Source of the DNA: a virus
DNA: 34,137 nt
IMG/VR virus record: IMGVR_UViG_3300031657_000005
Span: 1-34,137 of that record
Direction: 5' to 3' (one strand)
Position numbers and translations under genes: made by a program. Each line of letters opens with the position of its first letter. The stretch's first letter is position 1. Under the pieces are notes generated by a model, which was not told the DNA's origin, ran no database searches, and worked only from the letters and a program-made list of their open reading frames with translations. Positions 566 to 29,858 of this stretch are shown piece by piece.

Positions 566-1546
566 ATGAGAATTGGAATAATTTATAGGGCTACTTCACC
601 CTCCGGGAAAAAATATTATGGAAGATCCATTCAACCGTTGTCGAGAAGAAAATATCATCATTATAACAGTACAAGGAATGGATCCAATTTATATTTTCAT
701 AATGCTATTAGAAAATATGGAGAAGATAATATAAAATGGGAAATAGTAGAAAAAATAAAATATAAAACAAAAGAAGAATTAATAGAAATTCTTAATGAAA
801 AAGAAATAAATTATATTGATAAAGATAATACTCTTTGTCCAAATGGGTATAATTTGAATAAAGGAGGGGGTAATTATTGTGCAGGATTATCAAATAGAAA
901 AGGAAAAACATATGAAGAATTATATGGGAAAGAAAAAGCTGAAAATATAAGAAATAAACAAAGAAAAAATAATTCACATTATTGGAAAGATAGAAAAGTT
1001 CCCAAAGAAATTATAGAAAAAAGAGCATTTTCTAATACTGGTAAAAAACTGACAAAAGAAACAAAAGAAAAAATTAGACAATCTTTGTTAGGAACAAAAC
1101 ATACAGAAGAAAGAAAAAGGAATATTAGTGAAGCTCACAAAGGAAAAAGCTTTTTTGCTAAAAATTTTGGTGGATCTAGATATGGAAAAGATAATCCAAA
1201 TTATATTGAAATAAATGAAAAATTGGCAAGTAAAATTATAACATTACATACAAAAAAGTTTTTAAGTGCTAAAAAGATTGCAATAATGATAAAAATAAAT
1301 GGGACTAAAATAATAAATTTTTTAAGAGATAAAAATGTATATATGACCTCTCAAGAATTAAATGAACATAAATTAATTTATAAATTTCAAGAAACTATTA
1401 TTAATTTACATACAAAGGAATTATTAAGCGCTAAAAAAATTTCTACAAAATTAAAAATAAATAACTCCAAAGTTATTAAATTATTAAAAGAAGATAACGT
1501 TTATATGACCATTAGAAAACTAAATCAAAAAAGAAATGCAAGTTAA
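566..1546 (+). CDS. GIY-YIG homing endonuclease with NUMOD-type DNA-binding region
   Basis: The N-terminal GIY-YIG nuclease domain (about residues 1-100) shows the GIIY strand at 4-7, KYYG at 16-19, a following Arg-rich helix, a likely catalytic Glu near residue 80 in the EKEINYI helix and a GYNLNKGG segment. Lys-rich NUMOD3-like repeats follow (GKKLTKETKEKIRQSL and GTKHTEERKRNISEAHKGKS). The C-terminus is a tandem duplication of a roughly 55-residue helix-turn-helix unit, each copy holding LSAKKI and ending NVYMT. Free-standing enzymes of this type cut phage DNA and spread their own gene into uncut genomes. The gene has its own promoter-like motif, and its last 11 bases overlap the next tagged gene. 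Confidence 0.88.
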   Translation: MRIGIIYRATSPSGKKYYGRSIQPLSRRKYHHYNSTRNGSNLYFHNAIRKYGEDNIKWEIVEKIKYKTKEELIEILNEKEINYIDKDNTLCPNGYNLNKGGGNYCAGLSNRKGKTYEELYGKEKAENIRNKQRKNNSHYWKDRKVPKEIIEKRAFSNTGKKLTKETKEKIRQSLLGTKHTEERKRNISEAHKGKSFFAKNFGGSRYGKDNPNYIEINEKLASKIITLHTKKFLSAKKIAIMIKINGTKIINFLRDKNVYMTSQELNEHKLIYKFQETIINLHTKELLSAKKISTKLKINNSKVIKLLKEDNVYMTIRKLNQKRNAS

Positions 1547-1910
1547 ATTTATAAAAGAATCATTAGAAGATATTTTAAAACCTAAACAAATAATAGGTAA
1601 AATATTTTATGCAGAAGGTGCATTTAGTTCAGTACCGCCGTTTGCATTTAAAATATTAAATATGGGAAAAATGGAAAATATAGTTTATGAAGAAGTCATG
1701 ACATTTGAATGTGAAGTTGTTTTTAATAAGCATTTAATTGAAGGATCACAGTTTTTTAGTTTAGATGTTGGTGGAAAATTTAATCTTGATGAGGAAAATT
1801 TTAGTCATTTTAAAGAATTAGATGGTAAACCAATAGAAAAAATGAATAAACAAATTCATGAATTAGAAACGAACAAAAAATATTTTGAGAAATTATTAAA
1901 TGAAAGCTAA
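1536..1910 (+). CDS. Tagged protein, KPK-type leader plus unknown domain
   Basis: A 124-residue protein starting MQVKFIKESLEDILKPK, the tag shared across this window, with an I-K-E|S site matching a prohead-protease cleavage pattern. The rest is a mixed alpha/beta domain with a Val/Phe-rich centre and a charged C-terminal helix; no family recognised. The start lies inside the end of the homing endonuclease (11-base overlap) and the 3' end overlaps the next tagged gene by 11 bases, so the three are probably translationally coupled. Confidence 0.72.
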   Translation: MQVKFIKESLEDILKPKQIIGKIFYAEGAFSSVPPFAFKILNMGKMENIVYEEVMTFECEVVFNKHLIEGSQFFSLDVGGKFNLDEENFSHFKELDGKPIEKMNKQIHELETNKKYFEKLLNES

Positions 1911-3582
1911 ATTTGTAAATGAAAAATTAGAAGATATTTTAAAACCTAGATCCCAAGAAGAAATTTTTAAGGATGCAGAAAAAGAAGGTCAACTTGGGCG
2001 TCTCCATGGTTGGTTTATTTTAACTGGAGAAGGATCAAATAAAGAATATCTTCAGGATTATGAAGATTTTGATTATGCTGAGTCCATCAAATTTACAAAA
2101 AATAAAGATGAAGCATATCATTTTATGTATTATCAACAAGCAATTTTTATTGCAAAGATGCTAGATCATAAATATTTTAGATGTATAGATACAGCAAAAG
2201 TAGTTAAATCAAATATTTCTGAATCTTTAAATGATATTTTAAAACCTAAATCACAAGAAGAAATTAATAAAATAATGTCTAAATTATATTCTCATGAGTT
2301 ATGGGATTATTATTTAACAACAAAAGATGAAAAATTTTTAGATGTTGCTATCAAGAAAGGTTTACAGGATATACATCCCAATGAAGAAGAAATTGCTGAT
2401 GTTCTCGATAATTGGAAAAAAGATTTATCTCCCTTTATTCCTTTAATTATACCTTATCTTAATGATCATAATGATTTTAAAATATCAAAAACAAAATTAG
2501 GATTTAATGTACATTTTAACTATTGGGATGATTTTAGCTGTTTTTTTGAAGATAATAGCGAAATAACTACAAATGATATTAAAACAATAATTTCAGGAGA
2601 AGACCCAGAATTGTTTCAACAATATTATGATTCAACCATATCAGATATTCATGATTTAGGAAATATATTTGATCATATTCCAATAGCAAATGAACTTCAA
2701 AAGTTATTAGTTAATGTTGTTAAAAATGAAGGAAAGGATTTATCTAAGTTAAAAAAATGGAAAGACGGATTTGAATATTTATTTAATTATATTTTAGAAC
2801 ATAAAAATGATATTGAACTTAAAGGAATAATATCTGCTATATGTTATGCTTATAATGTAACTCAAGCAACAGCGGATGAGGATAAAGCTAGAGATGAACT
2901 AATTGGTGAAATACAAGAATATTTTGGATTTGATACAAAACCTAAAATTGGAAATGAAGATTTATATGTTATGCCTATTAGCAAAGAAAATTTAATTGTA
3001 ATGTTTAAAATATCACTTAATAGGAAAAATGGTATAAGCTATCACCCACCTAGTTATGGATGGATGGGTGATATTGAAAAATATGGTGATGTATTTAATG
3101 AAGAATTATCAAACCGATTGGATGATATTGAAATATTAAATGAATCTTTAGGTAATATTTTAAAACCTAAATCAAAAGATGAAATTTTAACAATTTTTAT
3201 AAATTTATCTATAAGTAATCAAGTAGAATTTCTTGAACTTGAAGATTACAATAATAAAAAAATTATTCCTCAAAAACATTGGCCTCTTATAATGAAAATC
3301 AAAGAAAAATTTAAAAAAGATTTTTTTGAAACTTTTAGAGTTACATACATAGATTTATGTCTATCAAAAAATGGAGTTAATTTTAGAATTTATCCAAGAG
3401 AAAGAAATCGTGATCCGATTAGAATAGATCAATATGATTCTGATGCTGATTTTGTAAGAGTAAGGGAAATGTATACTACAAAAATTATACCACATCAAAA
3501 TAGAAAACCAAAACGTGTTGAAACTTATCAAGAATTTTTAAAATGGTTTAATGAGGTTTTATCCACTAAAAAAAGGATGTAA
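1900..3582 (+). CDS. Three-module tagged protein (possible polyprotein)
   Basis: A 560-residue protein built of three units, each opened by the shared tag: residues 1-22 (KLEDILKPRSQEEI), about 106-122 (ISESLNDILKPKSQEEI) and about 413-429 (LNESLGNILKPKSKDEI). Unit 1 is a small globular domain of about 100 residues, unit 2 is the largest (about 300 residues, helical, acidic) and unit 3 is about 130 residues with basic patches. None matches a family I recognise. V-N-E, I-S-E and L-N-E precede the three tag cores, so cutting after E would release three separate proteins; this is inference. The start overlaps the preceding tagged gene. Confidence 0.75.
   Translation: MKAKFVNEKLEDILKPRSQEEIFKDAEKEGQLGRLHGWFILTGEGSNKEYLQDYEDFDYAESIKFTKNKDEAYHFMYYQQAIFIAKMLDHKYFRCIDTAKVVKSNISESLNDILKPKSQEEINKIMSKLYSHELWDYYLTTKDEKFLDVAIKKGLQDIHPNEEEIADVLDNWKKDLSPFIPLIIPYLNDHNDFKISKTKLGFNVHFNYWDDFSCFFEDNSEITTNDIKTIISGEDPELFQQYYDSTISDIHDLGNIFDHIPIANELQKLLVNVVKNEGKDLSKLKKWKDGFEYLFNYILEHKNDIELKGIISAICYAYNVTQATADEDKARDELIGEIQEYFGFDTKPKIGNEDLYVMPISKENLIVMFKISLNRKNGISYHPPSYGWMGDIEKYGDVFNEELSNRLDDIEILNESLGNILKPKSKDEILTIFINLSISNQVEFLELEDYNNKKIIPQKHWPLIMKIKEKFKKDFFETFRVTYIDLCLSKNGVNFRIYPRERNRDPIRIDQYDSDADFVRVREMYTTKIIPHQNRKPKRVETYQEFLKWFNEVLSTKKRM
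2215..2265 (+). other. Internal copy of the KPKS tag (module 2)
   Basis: Encodes ISESLNDILKPKSQEEI in frame within the 1900-3582 gene. The nucleotide sequence is also close to other copies (for example gatattttaaaacctaaatc), which could support recombination between modules. Confidence 0.75.
3136..3186 (+). other. Internal copy of the KPKS tag (module 3)
   Basis: Encodes LNESLGNILKPKSKDEI in frame, marking the start of the last module of the 1900-3582 gene. Confidence 0.72.
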
Positions 3583-3586
3583 TTAT

Positions 3587-3952
3587 ATGATTAGTATTAT
3601 ATTAATGATTTTAGCTGGCATATTCAACGCCACAATGGACATGTTAAAAGTTCATTTTAAAATATCTATTTTTAAGGATTGGAAAGGACAACAATGGATA
3701 AATCCTTCTCTTTCATGGCATAATAAATGGAAACCAAAATCTAAATTTGGTGATTTAATAATGTCTACTGTATTAGTATGGTTGACAGATATGTGGCATT
3801 TTGTCAAAATGTTAATGATTTTGACAGTTTGTTTAGCAATTGTTTTTTATTCTCCTATTTGTAAATGGTGGGTAGATATTTTAATTTTCTATATTGCTTT
3901 TACAGGAACATTTGAACTTTTTTTCAGTAAAATATTTAAGAAAAGCCCTTAA
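3587..3952 (+). CDS. Small integral membrane protein
   Basis: I chose the ATG at 3587 rather than the in-frame ATG at 3551: it leaves a 4-base gap after the previous stop and has a rare Shine-Dalgarno-like AAAAGGA about ten bases upstream. The product (121 residues) begins with a hydrophobic helix (about 1-18), has a Trp-rich polar middle (WKGQQW, SLSWHNKWKPKSKFGD) and ends with two more membrane helices (about 68-87 and 92-110) and a basic tail. The KPKSKFG string is not the shared tag in context. It converges with the lysozyme gene and overlaps its 3' end by 17 bases. A lysis-related (holin-like) role is possible from position but not shown by sequence. Confidence 0.65.
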   Translation: MISIILMILAGIFNATMDMLKVHFKISIFKDWKGQQWINPSLSWHNKWKPKSKFGDLIMSTVLVWLTDMWHFVKMLMILTVCLAIVFYSPICKWWVDILIFYIAFTGTFELFFSKIFKKSP

Positions 3953-4739
3953 TGAATAATTCAGCTTCTTCAGCACGTCTTTTCTTTAATCCTGGATATT
4001 TTTTGTTAATTTTTGTAGTTAATATTCTCTCCGCCGCTCCAAAATAATCTTTTCTTTTTAGTAGTTGTATCATTTCTGAGGTTCTTAAAGCGGTAGTACC
4101 AACATTATATGTTATAGAAACTAAAGCATCAAACATATTGTGAGAAATTTTAATATTTATACCAGAATCTTGCCATTGTTTAAATATTCTTTTTACATCT
4201 CTTTCTTTTTTCTTAATATCTTGTATAAGTAATCTTTCTGCTTCTTCTTTCGAAATTTTATCTCCTAATCTATATTTAGATGTCTTTATTGGTTCTGCAT
4301 GTCCATATCCGATAGTAATTCTATTATCTTTAAGACTATAAGCCTTCAAACGCAATCCTTCGTGTTTTTTAATTATATTTATACAATTATTAGTAACTTT
4401 TAAAGTTAAGGGATCTTGTAAAATATTAAATTCTAAATTATTGTCCTTCCTATATAAGTTTAATAGTGTTTCAAATTCAGTAAAAATTTCATCTCTAGAA
4501 AGGAAATCTTCTTGTGACATATTTATTATTACAGGTTCTTTAGAAATTAAATCCTTATTAGGTAAGGTCATTTCAGATGTTTTTGAATTAGCAAACATCA
4601 AAAACATAGATGCTAAAACACCAAGTTTTTTACTCGTATCAACTATAGAATTTATATTAATTTTCTCGTTAAGAATATTTTCTGCTAAAAAATCTTCATT
4701 TAACATCATAAATCGATTTATAGATTCGCGAACAAGCAT
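3936..4739 (-). CDS. Phage lysozyme (GH24, T4 lysozyme family) with N-terminal extension
   Basis: The C-terminal 150 residues are a GH24 muramidase, which cuts the peptidoglycan glycan backbone. The catalytic Glu is in KKHEGLRLKAY (E127), followed by TIGYGH (142-147), and the conserved FDALVSITYNVG helix comes later. An extension of about 115 residues precedes the enzyme, with a weak hydrophobic stretch at about 39-50. The first residues, MLVRESINRF, fit the [ILV]-x-E|S site seen in the tagged proteins, so the extension could be a targeting or pro-region. It might serve host lysis or act as a virion lysozyme; the separate gp5-like spike in this window has no lysozyme domain. It has its own upstream promoter-like motif. 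Confidence 0.9.
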   Translation of the reverse strand: MLVRESINRFMMLNEDFLAENILNEKININSIVDTSKKLGVLASMFLMFANSKTSEMTLPNKDLISKEPVIINMSQEDFLSRDEIFTEFETLLNLYRKDNNLEFNILQDPLTLKVTNNCINIIKKHEGLRLKAYSLKDNRITIGYGHAEPIKTSKYRLGDKISKEEAERLLIQDIKKKERDVKRIFKQWQDSGINIKISHNMFDALVSITYNVGTTALRTSEMIQLLKRKDYFGAAERILTTKINKKYPGLKKRRAEEAELFIKGFS

Positions 4740-4747
4740 AAAAATAC

Positions 4748-4764
4748 TTTTGTTTTATATATTC
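4748..4764 (-). promoter_or_regulatory. Late-promoter-like motif before the lysozyme gene
   Basis: On the minus strand this reads GAATATATAAAACAAAA and ends eight bases before the lysozyme ATG. It differs by one base from the motif at 545-561. Confidence 0.45.
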
Positions 4765-4780
4765 TTTTAGAAAAAAAATT

Positions 4781-4816: not shown

Positions 4817-4833
4817 AATAGTAAAAATTTTAC

Positions 4834-5272: not shown

Positions 5273-5298
5273 AAGGAGGAAATTATTTCCTCCTTTTT
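5273..5298. terminator. Bidirectional hairpin terminator after hsp20
   Basis: A perfect 10-bp stem, AAGGAGGAAA (5273-5282) pairing with TTTCCTCCTT (5286-5295), has a 3-base loop and a T-run on the plus strand. The minus strand has a matching T-run just beyond the stem. The stop codon of the minus-strand gene (5297-5299) lies in it, so it can end both converging units. Confidence 0.85.
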
Positions 5299-6316
5299 AT
5301 ATTTTCATGAATTCATCTAAATAGTATGTTATTTCAGATTCTGTTTTAAAAAAAGCCCTTACTCCCCCATAATAATCATAATTTTCTTTATCATCTTCCT
5401 CTGATAGAATTTCATACTCTATTTCACTAATATGTGGAATTATTTCTCCTGTAAATCTATATTGAACAAGTTCGTAAGTATCATTAACCTTAATTTCAAT
5501 ACCACCTGTGTTTGTTAATGCTAAACCTCCATGAGGCTTCCATGTATTTTTATAATAATATTCTAATATATTTTTGGCTGTTTTTGATGGTGCTATTAAG
5601 TTTTTAAAACCAGCCTTTATAAATTTATTAATATCAATTTCAGCATTAATCGAATACATTTCTTCAACAGGTTCAGTATATTCATCTAACATATTATTTA
5701 CAAAATCTTCATAATCTTCATATGTCATATTCTTGAGAACATCTACAATTTCCTCTTCAGATTTAGGTTTTAAGATATCACCTAAAGATTCACTAATCTT
5801 TTCTTGTCTTTGCAACCATTTTTTCAATAATTTTTTTGCAGATTCAGGATTTTCATAAACACTATAAGATGCCCTTTCCTTATGATAATTAAATAATGCT
5901 TTATGTATATCAATAGATCTAATATTATAATTATTTAAAATATATTTTAAAACTTTTGTAAATCCAAAACATATTGACTTTTCTAATATAAGATTTCCAA
6001 TATATCCCACACCATTCTCAAAAAAATTAGAATTTTTTAAAAACTCTATAATAATTTCTTCAGGGATTGGTGTATATTCTAAACCTTCAGCTTCAAATTT
6101 ATTAAAAACTAACCATAAAATTCCCGTTGTTTTTTGTTTGAGTATTTGCGCTCCATGTTTTAATGCATGTTTAACATATAAAATTGATCCTAAACTAATA
6201 GCTTTTTTTAAGTGTGTATTAGCATTTTCTATACCTGTTATATGAATTGCTAATATTGATTTCTTAATATCTTCTTCAGATTTAGGTTTAAAAATATCAT
6301 TTATTTTTTTTTGCAC
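5297..6316 (-). CDS. Two-module tagged protein with diverged ankyrin-like first module
   Basis: The start codon is GTG. The 339-residue product opens with a shortened tag (INDIFKPKSEEDI) lacking the usual [ILV]-x-E leader. Residues of about 25-170 are helical with weak ankyrin-like units (for example YVKHALKHGAQIL). A full second tag at about residues 174-190 (ISESLGDILKPKSEEEI) begins a second domain of about 150 residues, with NMTYEDYEDF soon after it; a similar MSYEDYDYE string follows the first tag of the 28383-29507 gene. The C-terminal domain is mixed alpha/beta and acidic, of unknown function. It diverges from the gp25-like gene. Confidence 0.72.
   Translation of the reverse strand: MQKKINDIFKPKSEEDIKKSILAIHITGIENANTHLKKAISLGSILYVKHALKHGAQILKQKTTGILWLVFNKFEAEGLEYTPIPEEIIIEFLKNSNFFENGVGYIGNLILEKSICFGFTKVLKYILNNYNIRSIDIHKALFNYHKERASYSVYENPESAKKLLKKWLQRQEKISESLGDILKPKSEEEIVDVLKNMTYEDYEDFVNNMLDEYTEPVEEMYSINAEIDINKFIKAGFKNLIAPSKTAKNILEYYYKNTWKPHGGLALTNTGGIEIKVNDTYELVQYRFTGEIIPHISEIEYEILSEEDDKENYDYYGGVRAFFKTESEITYYLDEFMKI
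5747..5797 (-). other. Internal copy of the KPKS tag
   Basis: Encodes ISESLGDILKPKSEEEI on the minus strand, one of the most canonical copies, at the module boundary of the 5297-6316 gene. Confidence 0.75.
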
Positions 6317-6794: not shown

Positions 6795-8711
6795 ATGGCA
6801 AATAATAATATAAAATTTGAATTTTTTCGTACACAAAGAATTAGGTTTTCAGAACTTTTTCAGGATGCTATAAATTTTGTAAAAGCAACATATGAAGACG
6901 TTGGTCAGTATTTTACAATGGCTTCACCAATGGGTCAACTTTTACAGATTACTTTGCATTTAGGCAGAATGATAATGTATTATATTGAAGACTCTATCAC
7001 TGAATTAAATATAAATACAGCCTCTCGTCCCGCTAGTATAAAAGGTATAGCTTCTATAACTGGGCATAATCCTTCAAGAGCAATGGCAGCTAGAGGAACT
7101 TTAAAACTTAATTATAATGGAGAAAAATTAGATATTTACGGTAATACAGTTACTATTCCCAATTATACTCAATTAGTCTCTACAACAAATGGACTTACAT
7201 ACACAATTATATTACCAGGAGAAGAAATTAGATTAGATTTAAGTGGAATTAATAATTATGTAGATGTAAATATTGTACAAGGTAAAATTGAATATCAACA
7301 ATCTACTGGTACTGGAGATCCTCTTCAATCATATAATTTTCAAAATAAAAAAGGAGCAGGAATTGACAATTATTTTGTAAATATTTATATTGATGGAAAA
7401 CGTTGGGAGAAAAGAAACTCTATTTTAGATATGAATTACAATGAAGAATCCTGTATAGTTAAAACAGGAGTTATGGGTGGAATAGATGTATTTTTTGGAA
7501 GTGGGTATAATGGAATGGTTCCAAGAATTGGTTCAACTATTTTATTAGAATATCTTTTAACTGATGGAGAACCAGGAAATATTAAAACACCTTCTGCACA
7601 ATCTCTTACAAATTGGAAATTTGATACAAAAGGATATGCATTAAATAGCGAAGAAGTTGATCTTAATAAAATTATAAATGTTACAATTAAAAATGATATT
7701 ATATTTGGAACTTTAGAAGAACCTCTTTATCTTACAAGACTTTTAGCTCCTCATATGTCACGGTCATTTACTCTTGCAAATGCTAATAATTACATATACT
7801 TTTTACGTAAATTAAATATGTTTACTATTGTAGATGCTATTCCAGGTTTTGCAACATTTGAAGATAGATTTGCTTTAGACAAATATAATCAATCTAAAAC
7901 AAATTATGAAAATATTAATGAAGAATATAGAAAATTAGTTTCAACAATTGGAGCCAGTTCTACACAATCTTTAGCAAAAAAACAGGAATTGAATAATGCT
8001 CAAAATGAACTATATAAATGGCAAGGAATCCTTGAAGAAGAAAAGAAAAATGATAATACAGTTTATCTTTTTTTAGTCCCGGATGTAAACAAAAGAATTT
8101 CAGCCGCTCAAAATTATTATAGTTGTTCATTAGATTCATTCAAACTAACAAGTAGTGAACAAACAGCAATACTTGATTTAATTGAAGAAAGTGGACAAAG
8201 AATCATAACGGTTGATAATGCTATTATGACACTTAGATATCCTCGATTTGTTTTAAACTTATCACTTATTATTTATGAGGGATTTGAATTTGATGTTATA
8301 AGAGAACAAATTATTTCAAAAACATCTGAATATTTTCTAAAGAATACAAGAAGAGATCGTATTCCACAATCTGATTTAGTCCGTATAGTAGAAAATATAG
8401 AAGGTGTTGATTCAGTAACTGTATGGTTTGATGCAGATAAAAATAATAAAACAATTTATCAAAGTGGATATGGTATTGATGATTATGGAGATATTATTTT
8501 AAAAAGATATGTAGATGATGCATTTGGAAACAAAGTTCCCGTTAAAGACATTTATCCATTAATTAGAGGGGGCTGGAATAGTTATAATGAAATTTATTAT
8601 GATGATTCTTTAGATAAAAATAAACTCTCTACTGTTAATATAAATGTAAGAGGGATAACTAACGTGGACTTTAACAGCCAAGCAAATAAAACTATAGTAT
8701 CGTCTCTATAA
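6795..8711 (+). CDS. Baseplate wedge protein, gp6/Baseplate-J-like
   Basis: 638 residues, close to T4 gp6 (660). The N-terminus has helices containing FSELFQDAINFVKATYEDVG and DSITELNINTASRPASIKGIASITGH, typical of gp6-type and gpJ-type wedge proteins. A beta-rich core follows, then a Lys/Glu/Asn-rich helical insert (about 360-420), then a C-terminal part where REQIISKTSEYFLKN and IPQSDLVRIVENIEGVDSVTVWFDA match the Baseplate-J C-terminal pattern. In T4, gp6 dimers tie neighbouring wedges into a ring. The start has no Shine-Dalgarno, only an A-rich leader (AAAAAAATAAAAATG). The sequence recognition is mine and not confirmed by profile search. Confidence 0.8.
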   Translation: MANNNIKFEFFRTQRIRFSELFQDAINFVKATYEDVGQYFTMASPMGQLLQITLHLGRMIMYYIEDSITELNINTASRPASIKGIASITGHNPSRAMAARGTLKLNYNGEKLDIYGNTVTIPNYTQLVSTTNGLTYTIILPGEEIRLDLSGINNYVDVNIVQGKIEYQQSTGTGDPLQSYNFQNKKGAGIDNYFVNIYIDGKRWEKRNSILDMNYNEESCIVKTGVMGGIDVFFGSGYNGMVPRIGSTILLEYLLTDGEPGNIKTPSAQSLTNWKFDTKGYALNSEEVDLNKIINVTIKNDIIFGTLEEPLYLTRLLAPHMSRSFTLANANNYIYFLRKLNMFTIVDAIPGFATFEDRFALDKYNQSKTNYENINEEYRKLVSTIGASSTQSLAKKQELNNAQNELYKWQGILEEEKKNDNTVYLFLVPDVNKRISAAQNYYSCSLDSFKLTSSEQTAILDLIEESGQRIITVDNAIMTLRYPRFVLNLSLIIYEGFEFDVIREQIISKTSEYFLKNTRRDRIPQSDLVRIVENIEGVDSVTVWFDADKNNKTIYQSGYGIDDYGDIILKRYVDDAFGNKVPVKDIYPLIRGGWNSYNEIYYDDSLDKNKLSTVNINVRGITNVDFNSQANKTIVSSL

Positions 8712-8732: not shown

Positions 8733-9179
8733 ATGAAAGCTAAGTTTGTATATGAAGCAATGAGTGATATTTTAAAGGGAAAATCTGAAGAAGATATTAT
8801 ATCTTCATTAGAAAATACTAATTTAAAACCAAATGAATTACTTATTCAATCAGCAAAAATGGGTTTTTTACCTGGCGTAAAGAAAGCAATAGAAATAGGT
8901 GCTGATGTTCATGTTTATCATGATTATCCTTTACTCAGGGCTTCAAGATATGGTCATTTAGATGTTGTAGAACTTCTACTTAAGAATGAAGCTGACATCC
9001 ATGCTGTTAATGATGAGGCTTTACGATTGGCTTCAGAAAAAGGTCATTTAGATATTGTAGAAATTCTAATTAAAAATGGAGCTGATGTTCATGCTCAAAA
9101 TAATGAAGCTTTACAATGGGCTTTCAATCATAATCACTTAAATGTAGCAGAATTATTAATAAAATGGATGAAAAAGTGA
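8733..9179 (+). CDS. Tagged ankyrin-repeat protein (KGKS type)
   Basis: 148 residues. It opens with MKAKFVYEAMSDILKGKSEEDI, with V-Y-E|A at the presumed cleavage position, then a helical cap (NTNLKPNELLIQSAKMGFLP) and about four ankyrin units with a 30-residue period (ALRLASEKGHLDIVEILIKN, GADVHAQNN). It ends LLIKWMKK. Ankyrin repeats bind proteins; the partner is unknown. The gene follows the gp6-like gene by 21 bases and its stop overlaps a GTG start of the next ankyrin gene (GTGA). Confidence 0.87.
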   Translation: MKAKFVYEAMSDILKGKSEEDIISSLENTNLKPNELLIQSAKMGFLPGVKKAIEIGADVHVYHDYPLLRASRYGHLDVVELLLKNEADIHAVNDEALRLASEKGHLDIVEILIKNGADVHAQNNEALQWAFNHNHLNVAELLIKWMKK

Positions 9180-9586
9180 AGGCTAAATTTGTATATGAAG
9201 CAATGGGTGATATTTTAAAGGGTAAATCTAAAGAAGATATTATATCTTCTATGGAAAATACTGATTTAGATCTAGATAAATTACTTATAAAGTCTTCAGA
9301 AGTGGGTTTTTTACCTGGGGTAAAAAAAGCCCTAAAAATGGGAGCGAATATTCATGCTTATAATGATTATGCGTTACAAATAGCTTCTGGAAATGGTCAT
9401 ATAGATGTTGTTGATCTTTTACTTAAAAATGGTGCTGATGTTCAAGCTGATGATGATTTGGCTTTACAACGGGCTTCAGGAAATGGTCATACAGATGTTA
9501 TTGATCTTTTACTTAAGAATGGTGCTGATGTTCATGCTCATAATAATCATGCTTTATTATATGGGCTTCCGTTAATAATAACTTAA
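9176..9586 (+). CDS. Tagged ankyrin-repeat protein with a frameshifted C-terminus
   Basis: I prefer the GTG at 9176, which overlaps the previous stop as GTGA and aligns with the family MKAKFVYEAMGDILKGK start; an in-frame ATG lies at 9164. Cap and two good 30-residue repeats are present, but the frame then ends abnormally as ALLYGLPLIIT. Dropping two bases near 9555 restores the usual WASVNNNLNVIEL, and a 13-base tandem duplication (TGTTATAGAATTA at 9588-9600 and 9601-9613) explains the remaining offset, after which LLKKYM and a stop follow. The final repeat is therefore broken by two indels, and the product is a shortened ankyrin protein. Confidence 0.75.
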   Translation: MKAKFVYEAMGDILKGKSKEDIISSMENTDLDLDKLLIKSSEVGFLPGVKKALKMGANIHAYNDYALQIASGNGHIDVVDLLLKNGADVQADDDLALQRASGNGHTDVIDLLLKNGADVHAHNNHALLYGLPLIIT

Positions 9587-9631: not shown

Positions 9632-10047
9632 ATGAAAGCTAAATTTGTATATGAAGCAATGGAAGATGTTTTAAAACCTAAAGATATAGATTTTAAGGAA
9701 TATTTAAAAACAAAAAAATTTTTAGGATATGATATAGCTACAGATACTTGGATAAAAAAAGGTAAAAAAAGAAATTTGATGTAGAGGGAAAATATATACA
9801 AATTTATCTTAAAAATTATGATTATATTATATTTTTAAACAATAACAAAGTAACTGGAGATATATTTGTTGCAAAAAATGATGGTGTTATGAGCATGTAT
9901 ACATGGGTTCCTCATTCAGTTTTTAGAAAAAGCTGGTTAGATAAAATGTTAAATGATTATTATAGTTTAAAAAATAAATTTGAAGAAGTTGGAGTTACCA
10001 GAAAAGATATTGAAGATATAGCAAAATTTAATAAAATTATTACTTAA
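9632..10047 (+). pseudogene. Frameshifted tagged gene (KPK type)
   Basis: The first part (9632-9784) encodes 50 residues beginning MKAKFVYEAMEDVLKPKDID and stops at TAG. The following 260 bases stay open in the -1 frame from about 9772 up to TAA at 10045-10047, encoding KFDVEGKYIQIYLKNYDYII and ending IAKFNKIIT, directly before the next ATG. The break coincides with a run of seven A at 9764-9770; one extra A would rejoin the frames into about 138 residues. It may be a recent mutation, a homopolymer sequencing error or a slippage site; the A AAA AAA string just upstream (9754-9760) leads to an immediate stop in the -1 frame. The domain is unrecognised. Confidence 0.75.
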
Positions 10048-10367: not shown

Positions 10368-11642
10368 ATGAAAGTTAAATTCGTATATGAAGCAATGGGT
10401 GATGTTTTAAAAAGCAAATCTGAAGAAGAAATTATGTCTTCATTAGAAAATACTAATTTAAAACCAGATGAATTACTTATTAAATCTACAAATGTAGGTT
10501 TTTTAGCTGGTGTAAAAAAAGCAATAGAAATGGGTGCTAATGTTCATGTTGATAATGATTATGCTTTACGTTTGACTTCTGAAAGAGGTTATCTTCCTAT
10601 TGTAAAACTTTTACTTGATGCAGGAGCTAATATTCATCAATATGAGGATTACGCTTTATGTGTATCTTCACAAGGTGGTTATAAAGATGTTGTAGAACTT
10701 TTACTTAAGAATGGGGCTGATGTTCATGTTGTTAATGATGAAGCTTTACGAGAGGCTTCACTATATGGTCATAAAGATATTGTAGAACTTTTGCTTAAAA
10801 ATGGTGCAAATATTCATGCTAATGAAGATAAGGCTCTAGAATGGGCTTCACTAAATGGTCATTGTGATGTTGTAGAACTTCTACTTAAGAATGGAGCTAA
10901 TGTTCATGATAATATTGATAAACTTTTACGTTATGCTTTACGAAGAGGTCATCATGATGTTGTAAAGTTATTAAATAAATATATGAATATTAAAGAATCT
11001 TTAAGCAATGTTTTAAAGGGAAAATCTGAAGAAGAAATTTTGTCTTCAATAGAAAAAGGTAATTTAAATTCTGATAATTTACTTATTAAATCTACAAATG
11101 TGGGTTTTTTACCTGGAGTAAAAAAAGCGCTAGAAATAGGTGCTGATGTTCATGTTGCTGATGATTACGCTTTAGAATGGGCTTCAAGATATGGTTATAA
11201 AGAGATTGTAGAACTTCTACTTAAACATGGGGCTAATGTTCATGCTAAAGATGATTTGGCATTCCGATGGGCTTCACAAAATGGTTATTTAGCTACTGCA
11301 AAACTTTTACTTAAATATATGAATATCAAGGAATCTTTAGTAAATATTTTTAAACCTAAATCTCAAGAAGAGATCAATAGAGATTTAATAGAATTATATG
11401 GATTTATTCCTAGTGATGAAGAAACATTAATTTTAGCTATTGATAGAGGTAAAATGAAACCAGGTGATCATCCTTATCCAATAGAATATCATAGAGATTC
11501 AATTGGAGTTTTTTGGAAAAAATTACCTGGTCAACGACCATTATCTAGGCTTAAATCTTCTGAGATACTTTGGCTTTTAGATATAATAGATGGAAAACAT
11601 GAATTCGATTCTCAATGGATTAAAGGTCCAAAATTTAAATAA
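10368..11642 (+). CDS. Three-module tagged protein: ankyrin, ankyrin, unknown
   Basis: 424 residues. Module 1 (1-205) has the MKVKFVYEAMGDVLKSKSEEE tag, cap and five 30-residue ankyrin units. Module 2 starts at Met206 (NIKESLSNVLKGKSEEEI) with a cap and two units. Module 3 starts at Met318 (NIKESLVNIFKPKSQEEI) and carries about 90 residues of a non-ankyrin domain rich in Pro and His. Both internal tags follow the K-Y-M end that closes stand-alone ankyrin genes, so the protein looks like three formerly separate genes fused by loss of a stop. The internal ATGs at 10983 and 11319 could also be used for internal initiation. It lies between small virion and gp7-like genes. Confidence 0.83.
   Translation: MKVKFVYEAMGDVLKSKSEEEIMSSLENTNLKPDELLIKSTNVGFLAGVKKAIEMGANVHVDNDYALRLTSERGYLPIVKLLLDAGANIHQYEDYALCVSSQGGYKDVVELLLKNGADVHVVNDEALREASLYGHKDIVELLLKNGANIHANEDKALEWASLNGHCDVVELLLKNGANVHDNIDKLLRYALRRGHHDVVKLLNKYMNIKESLSNVLKGKSEEEILSSIEKGNLNSDNLLIKSTNVGFLPGVKKALEIGADVHVADDYALEWASRYGYKEIVELLLKHGANVHAKDDLAFRWASQNGYLATAKLLLKYMNIKESLVNIFKPKSQEEINRDLIELYGFIPSDEETLILAIDRGKMKPGDHPYPIEYHRDSIGVFWKKLPGQRPLSRLKSSEILWLLDIIDGKHEFDSQWIKGPKFK
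10983..11039 (+). other. Internal tag copy with its own ATG (module 2)
   Basis: Encodes MNIKESLSNVLKGKSEEEI, a hybrid of the ESL-type start and the KGKS ankyrin-type core, located exactly where a new gene would begin. Confidence 0.72.
11319..11375 (+). other. Internal tag copy with its own ATG (module 3)
   Basis: Encodes MNIKESLVNIFKPKSQEEI and marks the switch from ankyrin repeats to a different domain. Confidence 0.72.
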
Positions 11643-19955: not shown

Positions 19956-20743
19956 TATTTAATAACTTCTTTATTAACTCCAAAAAAAGTACTTAGAAAA
20001 TTTTCAGGTAAAATAAATAATCCAAATCCGTTTTTATCACCAACATATGCATAATCAGATCCTTTATAAACATAATTAAAAATATGTGAATTATCATCAT
20101 GATAAATTTTACTTTGTAATTCATTTAATTTATATAGAAAACTTAATAATCCTTTTCCTTGTGTACCAATTCTTGTTTGGACTGCTTTTAAATTACCATT
20201 TAATTTTTTTGATATATCTAAGATTATTTTTGTTGCTTTTTTTGTAAAATCAATAGATTTCCATTTTTCATCATCAAAAACGTTAATAATTGAATTTCCA
20301 AACCATTTTTCCTTTAAAAAAGAAAAATCTTCAAAATATTTTTCCAAAGAAGGGAGCCCATTTAAATCTTGTTTTAAATCTTTATATTTATAAAGTGATT
20401 TTAATATTGATATTATTTCTTCTTCGGATTTAGGTTTGAAAAAATCATTTAAAGATTCACTAACAAATTTAGGTTTAAATAATTTACCTGAATCTGTTTT
20501 CATTGATTCTTTATATTCATATTCCAAATTTTCTTGTTGAATATATTTCATTAATAGTGATCCAAATCCTTGTCTTCTAAATTTGGGTTTTATTTGAATA
20601 TCACTTACAGTTAATTCATCATTATATAACACATAATCAACATATCCAACGTCCTCATTATCAACATAAATGATTGCTTGCATATTTACTTGATTTGAAT
20701 ATGCATCAGTTGAATGATTACTATATGTTATTTCTTTTTTCAT
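19955..20743 (-). CDS. GNAT-like acetyltransferase domain fused to a tagged module
   Basis: 262 residues. Residues 1-75 look like a compact GNAT fold: strand pairs (MQAIIYVDNEDVGYVDYVLY), then VSDIQIKPKFRRQGFGSLLMKYI, in which R-R-Q-G-F-G-S matches the acetyl-CoA-binding Q/R-x-x-G-x-G/A loop (56-61). A degenerate tag-like YKESMKTDSGKLFKPKF (78-94) is followed by a canonical tag VSESLNDFFKPKSEEEI and a helical domain of about 150 residues of unknown function. Here the tag is internal, with the enzyme in front. The start overlaps the gp5-like stop by one base and the end overlaps the next gene by one base. Confidence 0.75.
   Translation of the reverse strand: MKKEITYSNHSTDAYSNQVNMQAIIYVDNEDVGYVDYVLYNDELTVSDIQIKPKFRRQGFGSLLMKYIQQENLEYEYKESMKTDSGKLFKPKFVSESLNDFFKPKSEEEIISILKSLYKYKDLKQDLNGLPSLEKYFEDFSFLKEKWFGNSIINVFDDEKWKSIDFTKKATKIILDISKKLNGNLKAVQTRIGTQGKGLLSFLYKLNELQSKIYHDDNSHIFNYVYKGSDYAYVGDKNGFGLFILPENFLSTFFGVNKEVIK
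20414..20464 (-). other. Internal KPKS tag in the GNAT fusion
   Basis: Encodes VSESLNDFFKPKSEEEI, with V-S-E|S at the presumed cleavage site. It separates the GNAT-like domain from the C-terminal domain. Confidence 0.72.
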
Positions 20744-21513
20744 TAAGTTGATATAAGGACATTTTTTGATGTAGCAGCTTGCTTTGCTTGTTCCACTATT
20801 CCGACATTTATTCCAGGAGTTGCGGGCATTTTACTATCAATTGATGTAGCTAAGGTTGATAATAATGATATAATTGTTTCTCCTAGTATAGCATGGCTAT
20901 ATGGTCCTGGCCCGATTTTTGTTGTATCATTTCCAGCTACTCTTACTTCATCGGCAACAACTTCAACTTTTGCAGCAGCAGAAATATTTATTTCATTTTT
21001 TGTTACTATATTACATTTATCTCCTTCTAATTGAATAAGTGAATCCTGGTTTGCATGTTGAATTGTAATCATTGAATCAGGAGCAATTTGTATAAATGAT
21101 TCTCTATAATAAATTTCAAATCCTCTATTCCTTTGATAAATTACATTTAATCCCTCATCAGGGTCGTAAAGAATCACATGTGTTCCTTCATAATCTTCTT
21201 TTATTTCTTCAATTAATTCTGTATCAATATTTTGAATAGTTGTATATTCAGGAGCATAAATATCTCCATTGTTAAATTGTATACGAACAATTTGACCTAT
21301 TTTTGGAACTGATAAAGAACCTGCCCCATCCCCAGCAAATATAACAGAATTAATAGGTACAGCCCATGGAAGTTCTTTGGAATCAATACTATCCATTAAA
21401 CGAAATACTCTTATTTGACACCTACCAGAAAATAATGGATCGTTATTATTTGTGATTGTAGCAATCCAATCATTATCTTTCATATCTTTTGTTAAAAAAT
21501 CTGGTACTTTCAT
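20743..21513 (-). CDS. Baseplate spike protein, gp5-like OB-fold without lysozyme domain
   Basis: 256 residues. The N-terminal OB-fold (about 15-105) has the gp5/VgrG pattern: WIATITNNNDPLFSGRCQIR, an ELPWAVPI segment and PKIGQIVRIQFNNGDIYAPEY. Short regular beta repeats follow (MITIQHANQDSLIQLEGD, EINISAAAKVEVVADEVRVAG), which could form a small trimeric beta-helix, then AILGETIISLLSTLATSID. Unlike T4 gp5 (575 residues) there is no lysozyme insertion. The family forms the membrane-piercing tip on the hub. The ankyrin gene upstream ends exactly where this one starts. Confidence 0.82.
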   Translation of the reverse strand: MKVPDFLTKDMKDNDWIATITNNNDPLFSGRCQIRVFRLMDSIDSKELPWAVPINSVIFAGDGAGSLSVPKIGQIVRIQFNNGDIYAPEYTTIQNIDTELIEEIKEDYEGTHVILYDPDEGLNVIYQRNRGFEIYYRESFIQIAPDSMITIQHANQDSLIQLEGDKCNIVTKNEINISAAAKVEVVADEVRVAGNDTTKIGPGPYSHAILGETIISLLSTLATSIDSKMPATPGINVGIVEQAKQAATSKNVLIST

Positions 21514-21857
21514 TAGATATATTTTTTTAAAAGTTTTACAACATTTATATGACCATTTTCTGAAGCATATCGTAAAGCATAATCATTTTGAGCATGAACG
21601 TTAGCTCCATTCTTAAGTAAAAGTTCTACAATATCAATATAACCATAATTTGAAGCATATAGTAAAACCCAGTCATTATTAGCATGAACATTAGCTCCCA
21701 TTTCTAAGGCTTTTTTTACTCCAGGTAAAAAATCTTTTCTTAAAGATTGTTCAAGCAAATCATCTGGATCTATATTTTCCATAGAAGATATAATATCTTC
21801 TTCAGATTTACCCTTTAAAATATCACCTATTCCTTCATATATGAATTTAGCTCTCAT
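21513..21857 (-). CDS. Short tagged ankyrin-repeat protein (KGKS type)
   Basis: 114 residues: tag MRAKFIYEGIGDILKGKSEED with I-Y-E|G, a shortened cap and three 30-residue ankyrin units, ending VVKLLKKYI. It lies between the tube/baseplate candidate and the gp5-like gene, overlapping the latter by one base. It is one of the smallest complete members of the family here. Confidence 0.84.
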   Translation of the reverse strand: MRAKFIYEGIGDILKGKSEEDIISSMENIDPDDLLEQSLRKDFLPGVKKALEMGANVHANNDWVLLYASNYGYIDIVELLLKNGANVHAQNDYALRYASENGHINVVKLLKKYI

Positions 21858-23688: not shown

Positions 23689-24219
23689 TTACATATATTT
23701 TTTTAATAAGTCTACAACATTTAAATGACTTTTTTCTAAAGCTGATCGTAAAGCAAAATCATTATAAGCATGAACATCAGCACCATTATTAAGTAAAAAT
23801 TCTACAACATCTAAATGACCATTTCCTGAAGCCCATTGTAAAGCTAAATCATCTTTAGCATGAACATCAGCACCATTCTTAAGTAAAAGTTCTACAGTAT
23901 CTAAATGACCATTATGTGAAGCCCATTGTAAAGCTGAATCATTATTAGCATGAACATCAGCACCATTCTTAAGTAAAAGTTCTACAACATCTAAATGACC
24001 ATTTTTTGAAGCCCGCCGTAAAACATAATCATCAACAACATGAACATCAGCACCCATTTCTAATGCTTTCTTTACACCAAGTAAAAAATCTTTTCTTGAA
24101 GATATAACAAGTAAATTATCTGGTTTTAAATTAGTATTTTTCAATGAAGATAAAATATCTTCTTCAGATTTTCCCTTTAGAACATCACCCATTACTTCAT
24201 ATATGAATTTAGCTTTCAT
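23689..24219 (-). CDS. Tagged ankyrin-repeat protein (KGKS type)
   Basis: 176 residues: tag MKAKFIYEVMGDVLKGKSEED (I-Y-E|V), cap with NTNLKPDNLLVISSRKDF, then five 30-residue ankyrin units and the standard end NVVDLLKKYM. Successive repeats are nearly identical in DNA, including the ttcttaagtaaaagttctac stretch seen in other family members. The ATG directly follows the stop of the gp27-like gene (TAAATG), a junction also seen at other ankyrin genes, which suggests coupled translation. Confidence 0.87.
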   Translation of the reverse strand: MKAKFIYEVMGDVLKGKSEEDILSSLKNTNLKPDNLLVISSRKDFLLGVKKALEMGADVHVVDDYVLRRASKNGHLDVVELLLKNGADVHANNDSALQWASHNGHLDTVELLLKNGADVHAKDDLALQWASGNGHLDVVEFLLNNGADVHAYNDFALRSALEKSHLNVVDLLKKYM

Positions 24220-25827: not shown

Positions 25828-25837
25828 TCCTTTTCTA

Positions 25838-27376
25838 TTATTCTTTTAATATTTTTTTAATATATTGATATACATTATCAACATTATTAATTCTTTGATG
25901 GTTTTTAAATACTCCTCCAATCTTATCATTTGAATAAGATTTATCCAAATATGAAATTGCTGGAAAATTTGAATATGGATTTTGACTGATTAAAAATGTA
26001 AATTCTTTTTCATTTTTATCTGTTTCTTTAAATGCAAATGAAGCATTTATACTATCCCCATTAATATCTAAATTAAATTTACTATTAGGAAACATCGCAT
26101 AAAAAATTTCTGCAAATACTCGATATTCATTTTCATAAGATTTTCTTATTTCTTCTTCAGATTTTGGTTTTAATATATCATGAATAGATTCATTAATCGA
26201 AAAACTCAAAAAATCCAAAAGATTTTTTATATTATCTAACTCTATGGATGTATCATTATTTTCAAGTGTAACTAAAGTCTTATTTTTATTAGGGGAAAAA
26301 GCTACAGTAAATCTTCCTTGTTGTTTTACTCCAGATAATCCAAATCGAATATATATGTTCTTAATAGTTTTAAATTTAAATCCATATCCATTAGATGGAA
26401 AAAATTCCATACCAGATGTTATTTTACACTCTTTATTATAGCGATCCTGTACTAATTTATATAGATCGTTTAGAAATATATGTACTTTATGTGGAATAAA
26501 TGACATAAGTTCATTTTTAGATTTAGGTTTAAAGATACTTGATTCTTCTAATTTAGATTTTACTTCAAGTACTCGAATAAAATCCACAATGTTTTTTATT
26601 TGATCATTATCTGAACCACTATTTTCAAAAATTAAAATAAATTCATCATTTTCTTTATTTTGAGGTTCAAACCCAAATACATATTCTCCTATTTCCCCTT
26701 GATGAAATCCTTTTTCTTTTATAGGTTCAGTACTTTCAAATTGAAAACCATATATTTCATAATAAAATCCTAATTTTGATGTAATAATATAATTAGAAGA
26801 AGATTGAATAACTTTAAAAGCACTTTCAACTAAATTCATTTCATTTTTAAGATTAAATCCATATAATTTTAAAAAATTATCTTTGATTTGTTTTTCAGAT
26901 TTAGGTTTCAAGATATCACTTAAAGATTCTTTAATATTCATATATTTTTTTAATAATTCTACAATATTTGAATAACCTTTTTCTGAAGCGCGCCGGTAAG
27001 CTTCAGAATTGTTAGCACGAACATCAGCTCCATTCTTAAGTAGAACTTTTATAACATCTATATAACCGTAAGATGAAGCATAACGTAGAACCCAATCATA
27101 ATAAACATGAACATCAGCTCCATTCTTAATTAAAAGTTCTACAATATCTGAATGATCTTTTTCTGAAGCCCGTCGTAAAGCTACATCATTCATAGTATGA
27201 ACATCAGCACCCATTTCTAAGGCTTTTTTTACCCCAGGTAAAAAACCTATTTTTGATGATTTAATAAGTAAATTATCTGGTTTTAAATTAGTATTTTCTA
27301 ATGAAGACATAATTTCTTTTTCAGATTTACCTTTTAGAATATCGTCCATTGTTTCATATATAAATTTAGCTTTCAT
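25838..27376 (-). CDS. Four-module tagged protein: ankyrin plus three related unknown modules
   Basis: 512 residues. Module 1 (1-145) is tag MKAKFIYETMDDILKGKSEKE, cap and ankyrin units ending LLKKYM. Module 2 (from Met146, NIKESLSDILKPKSEKQI), module 3 (LEESSIFKPKSKNEL) and module 4 (INESIHDILKPKSEEEI) each add about 115-140 residues. Modules 2-4 look alike: a helix, then strands with an F.F pattern (YGFQFESTE, YGFKFKTIKN, NASFAFKET), so they may be diverged copies of one domain. Cleavage after E at each tag would free four products. The gene starts right after the gp53-like stop (TAAATG). Confidence 0.8.
   Translation of the reverse strand: MKAKFIYETMDDILKGKSEKEIMSSLENTNLKPDNLLIKSSKIGFLPGVKKALEMGADVHTMNDVALRRASEKDHSDIVELLIKNGADVHVYYDWVLRYASSYGYIDVIKVLLKNGADVRANNSEAYRRASEKGYSNIVELLKKYMNIKESLSDILKPKSEKQIKDNFLKLYGFNLKNEMNLVESAFKVIQSSSNYIITSKLGFYYEIYGFQFESTEPIKEKGFHQGEIGEYVFGFEPQNKENDEFILIFENSGSDNDQIKNIVDFIRVLEVKSKLEESSIFKPKSKNELMSFIPHKVHIFLNDLYKLVQDRYNKECKITSGMEFFPSNGYGFKFKTIKNIYIRFGLSGVKQQGRFTVAFSPNKNKTLVTLENNDTSIELDNIKNLLDFLSFSINESIHDILKPKSEEEIRKSYENEYRVFAEIFYAMFPNSKFNLDINGDSINASFAFKETDKNEKEFTFLISQNPYSNFPAISYLDKSYSNDKIGGVFKNHQRINNVDNVYQYIKKILKE
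26147..26197 (-). other. Internal tag copy (module 4)
   Basis: Encodes INESIHDILKPKSEEEI at the start of the last module of the 25838-27376 gene. Confidence 0.73.
26507..26554 (-). other. Internal tag copy, shortened (module 3)
   Basis: Encodes KLEESSIFKPKSKNEL. It keeps L-E-E|S and F-K-P-K-S but has lost the D-I-L part. Confidence 0.6.
26885..26941 (-). other. Internal tag copy with its own ATG (module 2)
   Basis: Encodes MNIKESLSDILKPKSEKQI directly after the KKY end of the ankyrin module, like the fusion points at 10983 and 11319. Confidence 0.73.
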
Positions 27377-28030: not shown

Positions 28031-28044
28031 TTTTTTAAATTATT

Positions 28045-28380
28045 TTATTTTATTATAATTATATTATTTCTCATATGAAAAACACATGTTTCATTTTCCC
28101 ACCCATAATAGGCATTAAGAAAATAAAAAATATTTAGCAAATCACCTGTTATTCCATATGCGTACATATTAGGAAATTTAATGCCTTCTTTTTCTAAATT
28201 ATATTTTTTTAATAATTCATTCATTTTTTCTTCATAATATATTGAAAATGGTAAAGAAAATCGTATCGAGATTTTATCCTTTTTAATTTCTAATTCTTTT
28301 TTTAAATAATTTCTTATATCTTCTTCAGATTTAGGTTTTAAAATATCACTTATTGTCTCATATATTAATTTAGCTCTCAT
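28045..28380 (-). CDS. Tagged small protein (KPKS type), unknown domain
   Basis: 111 residues: tag MRAKLIYETISDILKPKSEED (I-Y-E|T), then a Lys-rich helix, a KISIRFSLPFSIYYEEKMNE segment, and a C-terminal part with aromatic residues (GDLLNIFYFLNAYYGWENE) ending in a hydrophobic strand NNIIIIK. No family recognised. It is separated from the preceding tagged gene by two bases and from the gp53-like gene by 14. Confidence 0.68.
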   Translation of the reverse strand: MRAKLIYETISDILKPKSEEDIRNYLKKELEIKKDKISIRFSLPFSIYYEEKMNELLKKYNLEKEGIKFPNMYAYGITGDLLNIFYFLNAYYGWENETCVFHMRNNIIIIK

Positions 28381-28382
28381 TT

Positions 28383-29507
28383 TTATGCTTTGAATATTTT
28401 ATCTTTAATTAAATTAATATCAATTTCTTCATTATTAATTTCTAAACTCTCAATTTTTAATGGCGTATTTTTAAATAATCTTATTTCTTTTTCTTCTTCT
28501 GCCACAGGATCCATATTTAATCTAATTGTTTTAATCCAATCTACTTCATCTACCTTTACAGAAGAACTTATACAAACTAAATCTTTTTTATCAGTATTAT
28601 ATCCATGATGTTCTTCTGCTGCCTCAGGATTCCAAGACCAATAAATTCCTAATCGTTTACCTTCTTTTTGTATATGTTCAAACCAATTGTCTGAAACAGT
28701 CATTTTTCTCCAAATTTGAATTCTTGATCCCTGAATTACTTCATAATGAAACTTATTTATTGTTTCATAAAATCTACTTTCAATTTCATATTTAATCCAT
28801 TCACTTGCTTCCTTGGTATCTATCCACTCATTTACTTCCATTTTTTCAGGGTCTAATCCATGTTCTTGTGCATAAGAATACATAAATAATTCATTTTTAA
28901 AATCATCTCCCATCCAAATATTTAATGTATCTTTATTTATGATATCATTCATATTTATATCCGAAAAAGCCATCTCATTTAATTTTGCTTTCTCAGCACC
29001 ATTCTTAATTAGAAGTTCTACAATATCTAAATGACCATTTTCTGAAGCTAAATGTAAAGCATAATCAAATTTATAAGAATGAACATCAGCACCCATTTTT
29101 AGGGCTTTTTTCACCCCAGGTAAAAAACCTACTTTTGCAGATTTAATAAGTAATTCATTTGGTTTTAAATTAGTATTTTCTAATGAAGATATAATATCTT
29201 CTTTAGATTTTCCCTTCAGAACATCACCCATTGTTTCATATATCTGTTCAAATGTATCAGCTATTTCTTTTGCTACTTCCCTTGGATCCTTTTTATCTTT
29301 AAATCCTTGGTCAGCTATTTTTTTTAATTTTCTTCTAAATTGTTTCTTATTTGTAATTCGATTCCATCTATTGTAAGGATAAATAGCTTTAAGCATCTCG
29401 TAATCATAATCCTCATATGACATTTTTTCTATTTCTTTTTGAATATCTTCTTCAGATTTTCCTTTAAGAATATCATCCATTGCTTCATATATGAATTTAG
29501 CTTTCAT
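28383..29507 (-). CDS. Double-tagged protein with ankyrin unit and ADP-ribosyltransferase-like C-terminus
   Basis: 374 residues. Tag 1 (1-22, FIYE|AMDDILKGKSEEDI) begins a basic helical module; tag 2 at 89-105 (IYETMGDVLKGKSKEDI) begins a cap and a single ankyrin unit, ending near residue 172. The remaining 200 residues resemble R-S-E-type ADP-ribosyltransferases: IQIWRKM with R267, then LGIYWSW (287-293) followed by NPEAAEE, and AEEEKEIRL with E339-K-E341 before a Thr-Pro-Leu strand, matching the E-x-E ARTT position. In T4, Alt is a head-packaged ADP-ribosyltransferase injected with DNA. The ART reading is by eye and moderate to weak; the second motif lacks the usual S-T-S. Confidence 0.7.
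   Translation of the reverse strand: MKAKFIYEAMDDILKGKSEEDIQKEIEKMSYEDYDYEMLKAIYPYNRWNRITNKKQFRRKLKKIADQGFKDKKDPREVAKEIADTFEQIYETMGDVLKGKSKEDIISSLENTNLKPNELLIKSAKVGFLPGVKKALKMGADVHSYKFDYALHLASENGHLDIVELLIKNGAEKAKLNEMAFSDINMNDIINKDTLNIWMGDDFKNELFMYSYAQEHGLDPEKMEVNEWIDTKEASEWIKYEIESRFYETINKFHYEVIQGSRIQIWRKMTVSDNWFEHIQKEGKRLGIYWSWNPEAAEEHHGYNTDKKDLVCISSSVKVDEVDWIKTIRLNMDPVAEEEKEIRLFKNTPLKIESLEINNEEIDINLIKDKIFKA
29193..29243 (-). other. Internal KGKS tag (second module)
   Basis: Encodes IYETMGDVLKGKSKEDI within the 28383-29507 gene, followed by the ankyrin cap. It is a full KGKS-type start now internal, as expected if two genes fused. Confidence 0.73.
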
Positions 29508-29858
29508 CTACATATATTTTTTTAATAGTTTTACAACATCTAAATGACTATTTTGTGAAGCCCACCATAAAGCATCATCATTATTAGCATGAACATCAGC
29601 TCCATATTTAAATAAAAGTTCTACCACATTCAAATGACCATTTTCTGAAGCATTTCGTAAAGCCGCATCATTGTAAACATGGACATTAGCTCCCATTTTC
29701 AGGGCTTTCTTTACCCCAGATAAAAAACCTACTCTTGCAGTATTGATAAGTAAATCATTTATATCTAAATTAGTATTTTCTAATGAAGACATAATTTCTT
29801 CATCAGATTTTCCCTTTAAAACATCACCCATTGCTTCATTTACGAACTTAGCTTTCAT
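29508..29858 (-). CDS. Tagged ankyrin-repeat protein (KGKS type)
   Basis: 116 residues: tag MKAKFVNEAMGDVLKGKSDEE (V-N-E|A), a cap (ENTNLDINDLLINTARVG), three ankyrin units with a 30-residue period (ALRNASENGHLNVVELLFKY, then a WWASQNSHLDVVKLL unit) ending LLKKYM. It starts two bases after the 816-residue structural gene and is followed directly by the next tagged gene (TAGATG). Confidence 0.85.
   Translation of the reverse strand: MKAKFVNEAMGDVLKGKSDEEIMSSLENTNLDINDLLINTARVGFLSGVKKALKMGANVHVYNDAALRNASENGHLNVVELLFKYGADVHANNDDALWWASQNSHLDVVKLLKKYM

Follow-up and report, generated by a model that had tools for sequence, protein, structure and literature searches.

The DNA analysed here (the window) is the whole of IMG/VR record IMGVR_UViG_3300031657_000005, 34,137 bases long and itself a piece of a larger phage. 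Genes were called as the longest non-overlapping open reading frames. The phage was placed through its untagged, gp6-like baseplate wedge protein (6795..8711, plus strand), which shows 43% identity to its counterpart in the Prevotella Lak megaphages and about 30% identity to those of other megaphages of 460-735 kb. The window is a 34-kb fragment of a megaphage that is distant kin of Lak. Through the same protein, close relatives of the window phage were found in IMG/VR, such as G007, a 259,840-base contig with a baseplate protein 80% identical to that of the window. Other sequences compared include G023 (a contig of 405,016 bases and 454 genes) and W02 (LR756500).

Fifteen genes of the window carry a short peptide tag, the core of which reads DILKPKSEEEI in this lineage. 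A search with a profile of the copies detects 24 of them, each strongly (E about 3e-15 to 2e-6; 1e-7 for the 16-residue copy at 9632). The first-pass annotation had counted 14 genes that start with the tag, which this search bears out, and ten internal copies; the latter number also stands, though the genes that hold them are six and not five: 1900-3582 (two copies), 5297-6316 (one), 10368-11642 (two), 19955-20743 (one), 25838-27376 (three) and 28383-29507 (one). Its statement that 23 of the 24 copies keep [ILV]-x-E is likewise correct, the sole exception being the N-terminal tag of 5297-6316 (MQKKINDIFKPK).

Six tagged genes lie on the plus strand and one, close by, on the minus strand. Gene 1536..1910 (plus) starts with MQVKFIKE/SLEDILKPK, where the slash marks the predicted cut (its G007 homologue at 70249-70602 begins MKLVKE/SVEDILKPK). 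The profile shows the next gene, 1900..3582 (plus), to have three modules, with an N-terminal tag and internal tags at about 2209-2277 (NISE/SLNDILKPKS) and about 3127-3198 (ILNE/SLGNILKPKS). The two-domain gene 5297..6316 (minus) combines an N-terminal core that lacks the E (MQKKINDIFKPKS) with an internal tag at about 5732-5806 (KISE/SLGDILKPKS). Tag and ankyrin repeats follow in 8733..9179 and 9164..9586 (both plus), then a 50-residue reading frame starting MKAKFVYE/AMEDVLKPK (9632..9784, plus) and a gene built as tag-ankyrin-tag-ankyrin-tag-domain (10368..11642, plus; internal tags at about 10977-11054 and 11313-11387).

The remaining tagged genes are all on the minus strand. Tag plus ankyrin repeats recurs in 15853..16497, 21513..21857, 23689..24219 and 29508..29858, and gene 19955..20743 consists of a GNAT domain, an internal tag at about 20399-20476 (FVSE/SLNDFFKPKS) and a C-terminal domain. 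A four-module gene occupies 25838..27376 (tags at about 27296-27373, 26873-26947, 26492-26566 and 26132-26203), 28045..28380 joins the tag to an unknown domain (its G007 homologue at 43306-43659 is tagged too), and 28383..29507 contains a tag, a short stretch, a second tag at about 29178-29249, ankyrin repeats and an unknown C-terminal domain. Pfam confirms the ankyrin and GNAT domains that had been read as joined to the tag; an ART-like domain, also proposed, finds no Pfam support at E<0.05. Among the tagged genes lies an untagged one for a small heat-shock-like protein (4883-5266, recognized by eye). GIY-YIG or HNH endonuclease-like genes, also recognized by eye, occur amid structural genes in the window (566-1546) and in many places of G007, G008 and G023.

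Reading TAG as glutamine, which would fuse tagged genes and would follow the recoding of TAG in Lak, is unsupported: TAG ends 3 of the 35 window genes, and two of these three would gain at most 20 codons upon readthrough. The tagged genes 29508-29858 and 28383-29507 are separated solely by a TAG codon with an ATG right behind it, and would form one multi-tag protein if it were read through.

The N-terminal pattern [ILV]-x-E-[SAGN]-[ILMVF] is found in 9 of the 35 window genes; the expectation given by shuffles is 0.4 (at most 2 in 200). Given this enrichment and the presence of the core in other contigs, the tag is not a product of chance. In the G023 tags the fraction of identical codons is 0.653 against 0.635 expected, so codons are nearly free, and the DNA upstream of the tags shows no visible conservation; selection therefore acts on the protein. 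The same codon freedom and unconserved upstream DNA, together with the internal copies, speak against a DNA-level mechanism such as a mobile cassette, a promoter or a translation leader, which we reject. Tagged genes are mostly accessory: none of the 13 window genes that are conserved in Lak or LR756500 is core-tagged, against 14 of the remaining 22.

The window-type tag is present in every relative with a baseplate protein at least 77% identical, and in G007 some 50 copies, on some 40 genes, are scattered over the contig. At a baseplate identity of 74% this tag is gone and a different one is found instead. In G008 and G009, leaders such as MKAKFVFE/S and MIVKE/S precede the core INFERGxDPKxxMxIG, and in G023 the tag reads MKLVREHINE/KFxEESDPIxDMGIG, with 84 copies on 61 of the 454 genes and a maximum of six per gene. 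Lak-A1 has starts of the type MNKxIKxLLE/SLFDDD ([ILVM]-x-E plus [SN][LM]FDD on 11 N-termini), and in the 42 kb that surround the Lak-A1 baseplate gene a profile search finds no DILKPKS tag. About 15 proteins of W02 begin MKYIKEYEEFILE/A or a close variant, and in G001 a window-like core follows a leader of the T4 kind (MKKFKEFINE/NIKSILKGKSDEDV). Because related lineages pair similar leaders with different cores, a leader with [ILV]-x-E is common to the lineages and the core is lineage-specific. T4-like leaders are also seen in G001 at 60467-62249 (MKRLKKFKQFITE/D and MSVKSFKNFVNE/N), on a deoC-like aldolase (by eye) and its neighbour; metabolic enzymes may also be head cargo. A tblastn search of short tag consensus sequences against annotated phages gave nothing convincing, the exact pattern of the G023-type core is found in 0 of 84,980 prokaryotic species, and the open literature yielded neither a description of these or similar tag peptides nor proteomics for any member of this clade.

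The first-pass annotation of the tag has to be revised in three respects: leader and core are separate modules, the core is not universal and some tags have no site. Larger relatives show the tag to be made of two separable parts, a leader ending in [ILV]-x-E and a lineage-specific core. A leader alone is found on a lysozyme (window 3936..4739, minus strand, MLVRE/SINRF, with similar leaders on the G007 and G008 homologues), on a 1425-residue G007 protein with ResIII and Eco57I-methylase domains and, in several lineages, on a pair consisting of a MoxR-like AAA ATPase and a VWA protein. The G007 protein (212950-217227) has the leader MIVCE/SLFSFLKLNE/N and is DarB-like in content, which makes it a candidate injected antirestriction protein. 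The MoxR-like and VWA/DUF2201 pair is kept in four megaphage lineages (G008 120662-125700, G023 45465-49200, W02 200318-203494 and W01 75412-80861), nearly all with propeptide-like [ILV]-x-E boundaries. For the MoxR-like family these read ELNE/A, SLNE/G, ELNE/G and LINE/G, and the part before the boundary is between 22 and about 60 residues long.

Conversely, core-only proteins begin within about five residues of the core (MTSISDILKPKS, MGMTDILKPKS on a helicase, MNFERGKDPK), which is about the position at which a cut protein would start. The [ILV]-x-E is absent from about 9-11 N-terminal window-type cores and from 5-6 G008 cores. Since some tags have no site, the site cannot account for everything the tag does, and the existence of core-only proteins suggests that the core can work without a cut. 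Three of the E-less core-only proteins (G008 27383-27841, G022 42900-43355 and G007 182084-182812) contain short stretches resembling the major capsid protein of the phage that encodes them; these stretches differ between the two lineages.

The proposal that the leader holds a prohead-protease site gains strong sequence support from the relatives. The window record itself contains neither an S77 protease gene nor a major capsid protein (MCP) gene. In relatives, S77 prohead protease genes adjoin gp23-type MCP genes, and the T4-type protease shares its polypeptide with a long scaffold-like region. On contig G021 the S77 protease and the MCP occur together with the window-type core. All complete MCPs of the close group read KYAH[FY]HALNEA[AE][ML]GG, of which the region HALNE/A[AE][ML]GG is like the T4 gp23 cut site. 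The comparison with the capsid protein's cut site that the first pass had suggested, here run in relatives, is favourable, the predicted LNE/A boundary fitting the leader site. The protease-scaffold proteins have matching sites of the type [VIL]NE/[SAG], kept in 11-14 of 14 homologues inside otherwise variable stretches, and [ILV]NE[AGSN] is several-fold more frequent in them than in shuffled sequence. Genome-wide outlier lists of [ILV]NE sites single out few proteins.

The positions kept in the tags agree with such a site. N-terminal [ILV]-x-E occurs at a fixed spacing in 39 of 58 window-type, 58 of 59 G023 and 11 of 16 G008 copies. Internal copies have a hydrophobic P3 and Glu at P1 in 25 of 25 cases for G023 and, at the fixed spacing, in 30 of 37 for the window type (most of those off this spacing are shifted by a few residues), and in G008 Glu at P1 is found in 12 of 12 and a hydrophobic P3 in 10 of 12. 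In the two larger sets of internal copies the information is at or near noise from P4 outward, and upstream only P3 and P1 are kept. T4 gp21 cuts after L/I-X-E with little else needed (PMC9026906). As [ILV]-x-E is common by chance, the weight of these matches lies in their position and co-conservation. Leaders of 5-8 residues would not be too short for cutting, because the N-propeptide of T4 Alt has only six (ITE-6, PMC5694885). Counting against a shared site, P1' is Lys in most G023 tags and Ala in the G023 MCP. Residues 4 and 7 of the T4 capsid-targeting sequence (CTS) have no clear match in the shortest leaders (MIVRE); at P4, F is found in 9 of 12 window leaders (compare T4 F7) and residues are mixed in G007, G008 and G023.

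Multi-tag genes add information on the modules. In G007, the third module of window gene 1900-3582, which in the window follows an internal tag, forms a gene of its own with the tag at its N-terminus (67927-68406). Where cargo is homologous between lineages, each protein has the core typical of its lineage, as seen for module 4 of G008 125721 and G023 137557 (43% identity) and for G006 19614 and G023 323519 (35%); ankyrin cargo likewise bears each lineage's own core. AlphaFold predicts a confident solenoid for the tag-ankyrin protein 15853-16497, with a low-confidence and apparently flexible tag arm (pLDDT 53-58). For the two-tag protein 5297-6316, in a model of modest quality, the internal tag (residues 174-184) is in a linker between two domains, among the least confident stretches.

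Similar arrangements are known from other systems. The T4 internal proteins have leaders such as MKTYQEFIAE/A. Like T4 IPI-III and Alt, with their gp21-cut capsid-targeting sequences, the megaphages equip mutually unrelated accessory proteins with short N-terminal leaders that end in [I/L/V]-x-E, and relatives of the window phage have the S77 protease and a gp23-type MCP with LNE/A. The leaders MKYIKEYEEFILE of LR756500 and MKKFKEFINE of G001 resemble the T4 CTS, and the six-residue Alt leader is as short as megaphage ones. In contrast to T4, the megaphage tag has a second conserved core downstream of the predicted cut, which would stay on the protein; it is found on dozens of genes rather than a handful, recurs inside multi-domain genes and in part lacks the site. 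Contractile injection systems and T6SS also join one N-terminal effector marker to many unrelated domains, but the sequences are other ones and the megaphage marker contains a head-protease-like site. Giant phages SPN3US and phiKZ have ejection proteins with propeptides cut after Glu, by gp245 and gp175, respectively; there, however, propeptides are mostly long, the cut motif is A/S-x-E, and neither a lineage-wide retained core nor a large set of tagged accessory genes is present. The diverged SPN3US paralogues gp53 and gp54 have identical N-terminal 15 residues (PMC5694885). In phage P1, the prohead protease cleaves DarA (PMC12810830). DarA and DarB are packed in the head and co-ejected, and the 1425-residue G007 protein is DarB-like on a domain-level comparison, but the Dar proteins share no peptide tag.

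Together these results lead us to a reading that we hold moderately probable: a T4-type head-targeting leader that is cut by the protease, followed by a retained address core, with multi-tag genes as cleavable multi-effector precursors. The leader, 5-12 residues ending in [ILV]-x-E, would help to carry the protein into the prohead, where the phage's own T4-type (S77) protease would cut after the E. The core (about 12-16 residues) would then remain at the new N-terminus and serve as a docking or address peptide, either in the course of assembly or once the protein has been delivered to the bacterium. Multi-tag genes would be precursors which the protease splits into separate effectors; as every module keeps its own core, the core probably acts after the cut. 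We infer packaging and cleavage in the head from the identity of the site and its co-conservation, and injection by analogy to the internal proteins of T4, the ejection proteins of SPN3US and the Dar proteins of P1 (PMC9026906, PMC5694885, PMC12810830). The 61 tagged genes of G023 are many for a packaged set, which counts against this reading.

The main rival holds that the tag is a purely intracellular docking or localisation motif, made during infection and directed for instance to a compartment built by the phage or to a shared phage receptor protein, and that [ILV]-x-E belongs to its binding surface and is never cut. The core is the longest conserved part, and E-less core-only copies exist, including one on helicase G007 194397, whose G023 homologue is untagged. 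Also, in G008 the virion gene block contains none of the 6 E-less copies; of the leader copies, 4 of 14 are outside it (Fisher p 0.01, with the block and the counts set by hand). Nonetheless, P3 and P1 survive with unrelated cores, at differing distances from the core and on proteins that have no core, and matching sites are present in the protease-scaffold and capsid proteins, so that we consider a docking motif of this kind unlikely.

Two further explanations are less likely still. The interleaving of tagged and baseplate genes, seen in the window and in relatives, would fit a tag that directs effectors to the tail tube or baseplate, in the manner of contractile injection system cargo, instead of to the head. 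However, the tag sites agree with those in the head protease itself and with the MCP boundary, tagged genes are found throughout contigs of 260-405 kb, and in G007 the leader is on 0 of 31 tail and baseplate proteins against 77 of 280 others (p 1e-4, for a hand-made and partly circular list); loading into the tail is therefore improbable. We give even less credit to a repeated peptide that is a functionless by-product of gene duplication and gene-end recombination by a homing or mobile DNA element. The window copies do share somewhat more codons than expected from codon usage (0.775 against 0.629), and GIY-YIG-like endonucleases (by eye) are nearby, but among the 84 G023 copies amino acids are fixed while codons are free, and no conservation is visible in the upstream DNA. 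Most of the cargo is unrelated, and where it is homologous the cores differ.

More tentatively, and with rather more doubt than we attach to the head-targeting reading itself, the tag may represent a modular protein-routing code in giant phages. The cut leader would admit a protein to the virion and the retained core would route it to a common host target; uncut core-only proteins produced inside the cell would be routed likewise, and multi-tag genes would be polyproteins split by the head protease. Should this hold, the proteins that uncultured megaphages inject could be listed from sequence alone; they would amount to tens of accessory proteins in each genome, many of them unannotated and probably the first to act on the host. 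There would then be a peptide code for the cargo loading of large phage heads, effector polyproteins would be cut by a capsid-maturation protease, and the lineage-specific cores would point to a receptor that co-evolves with them.
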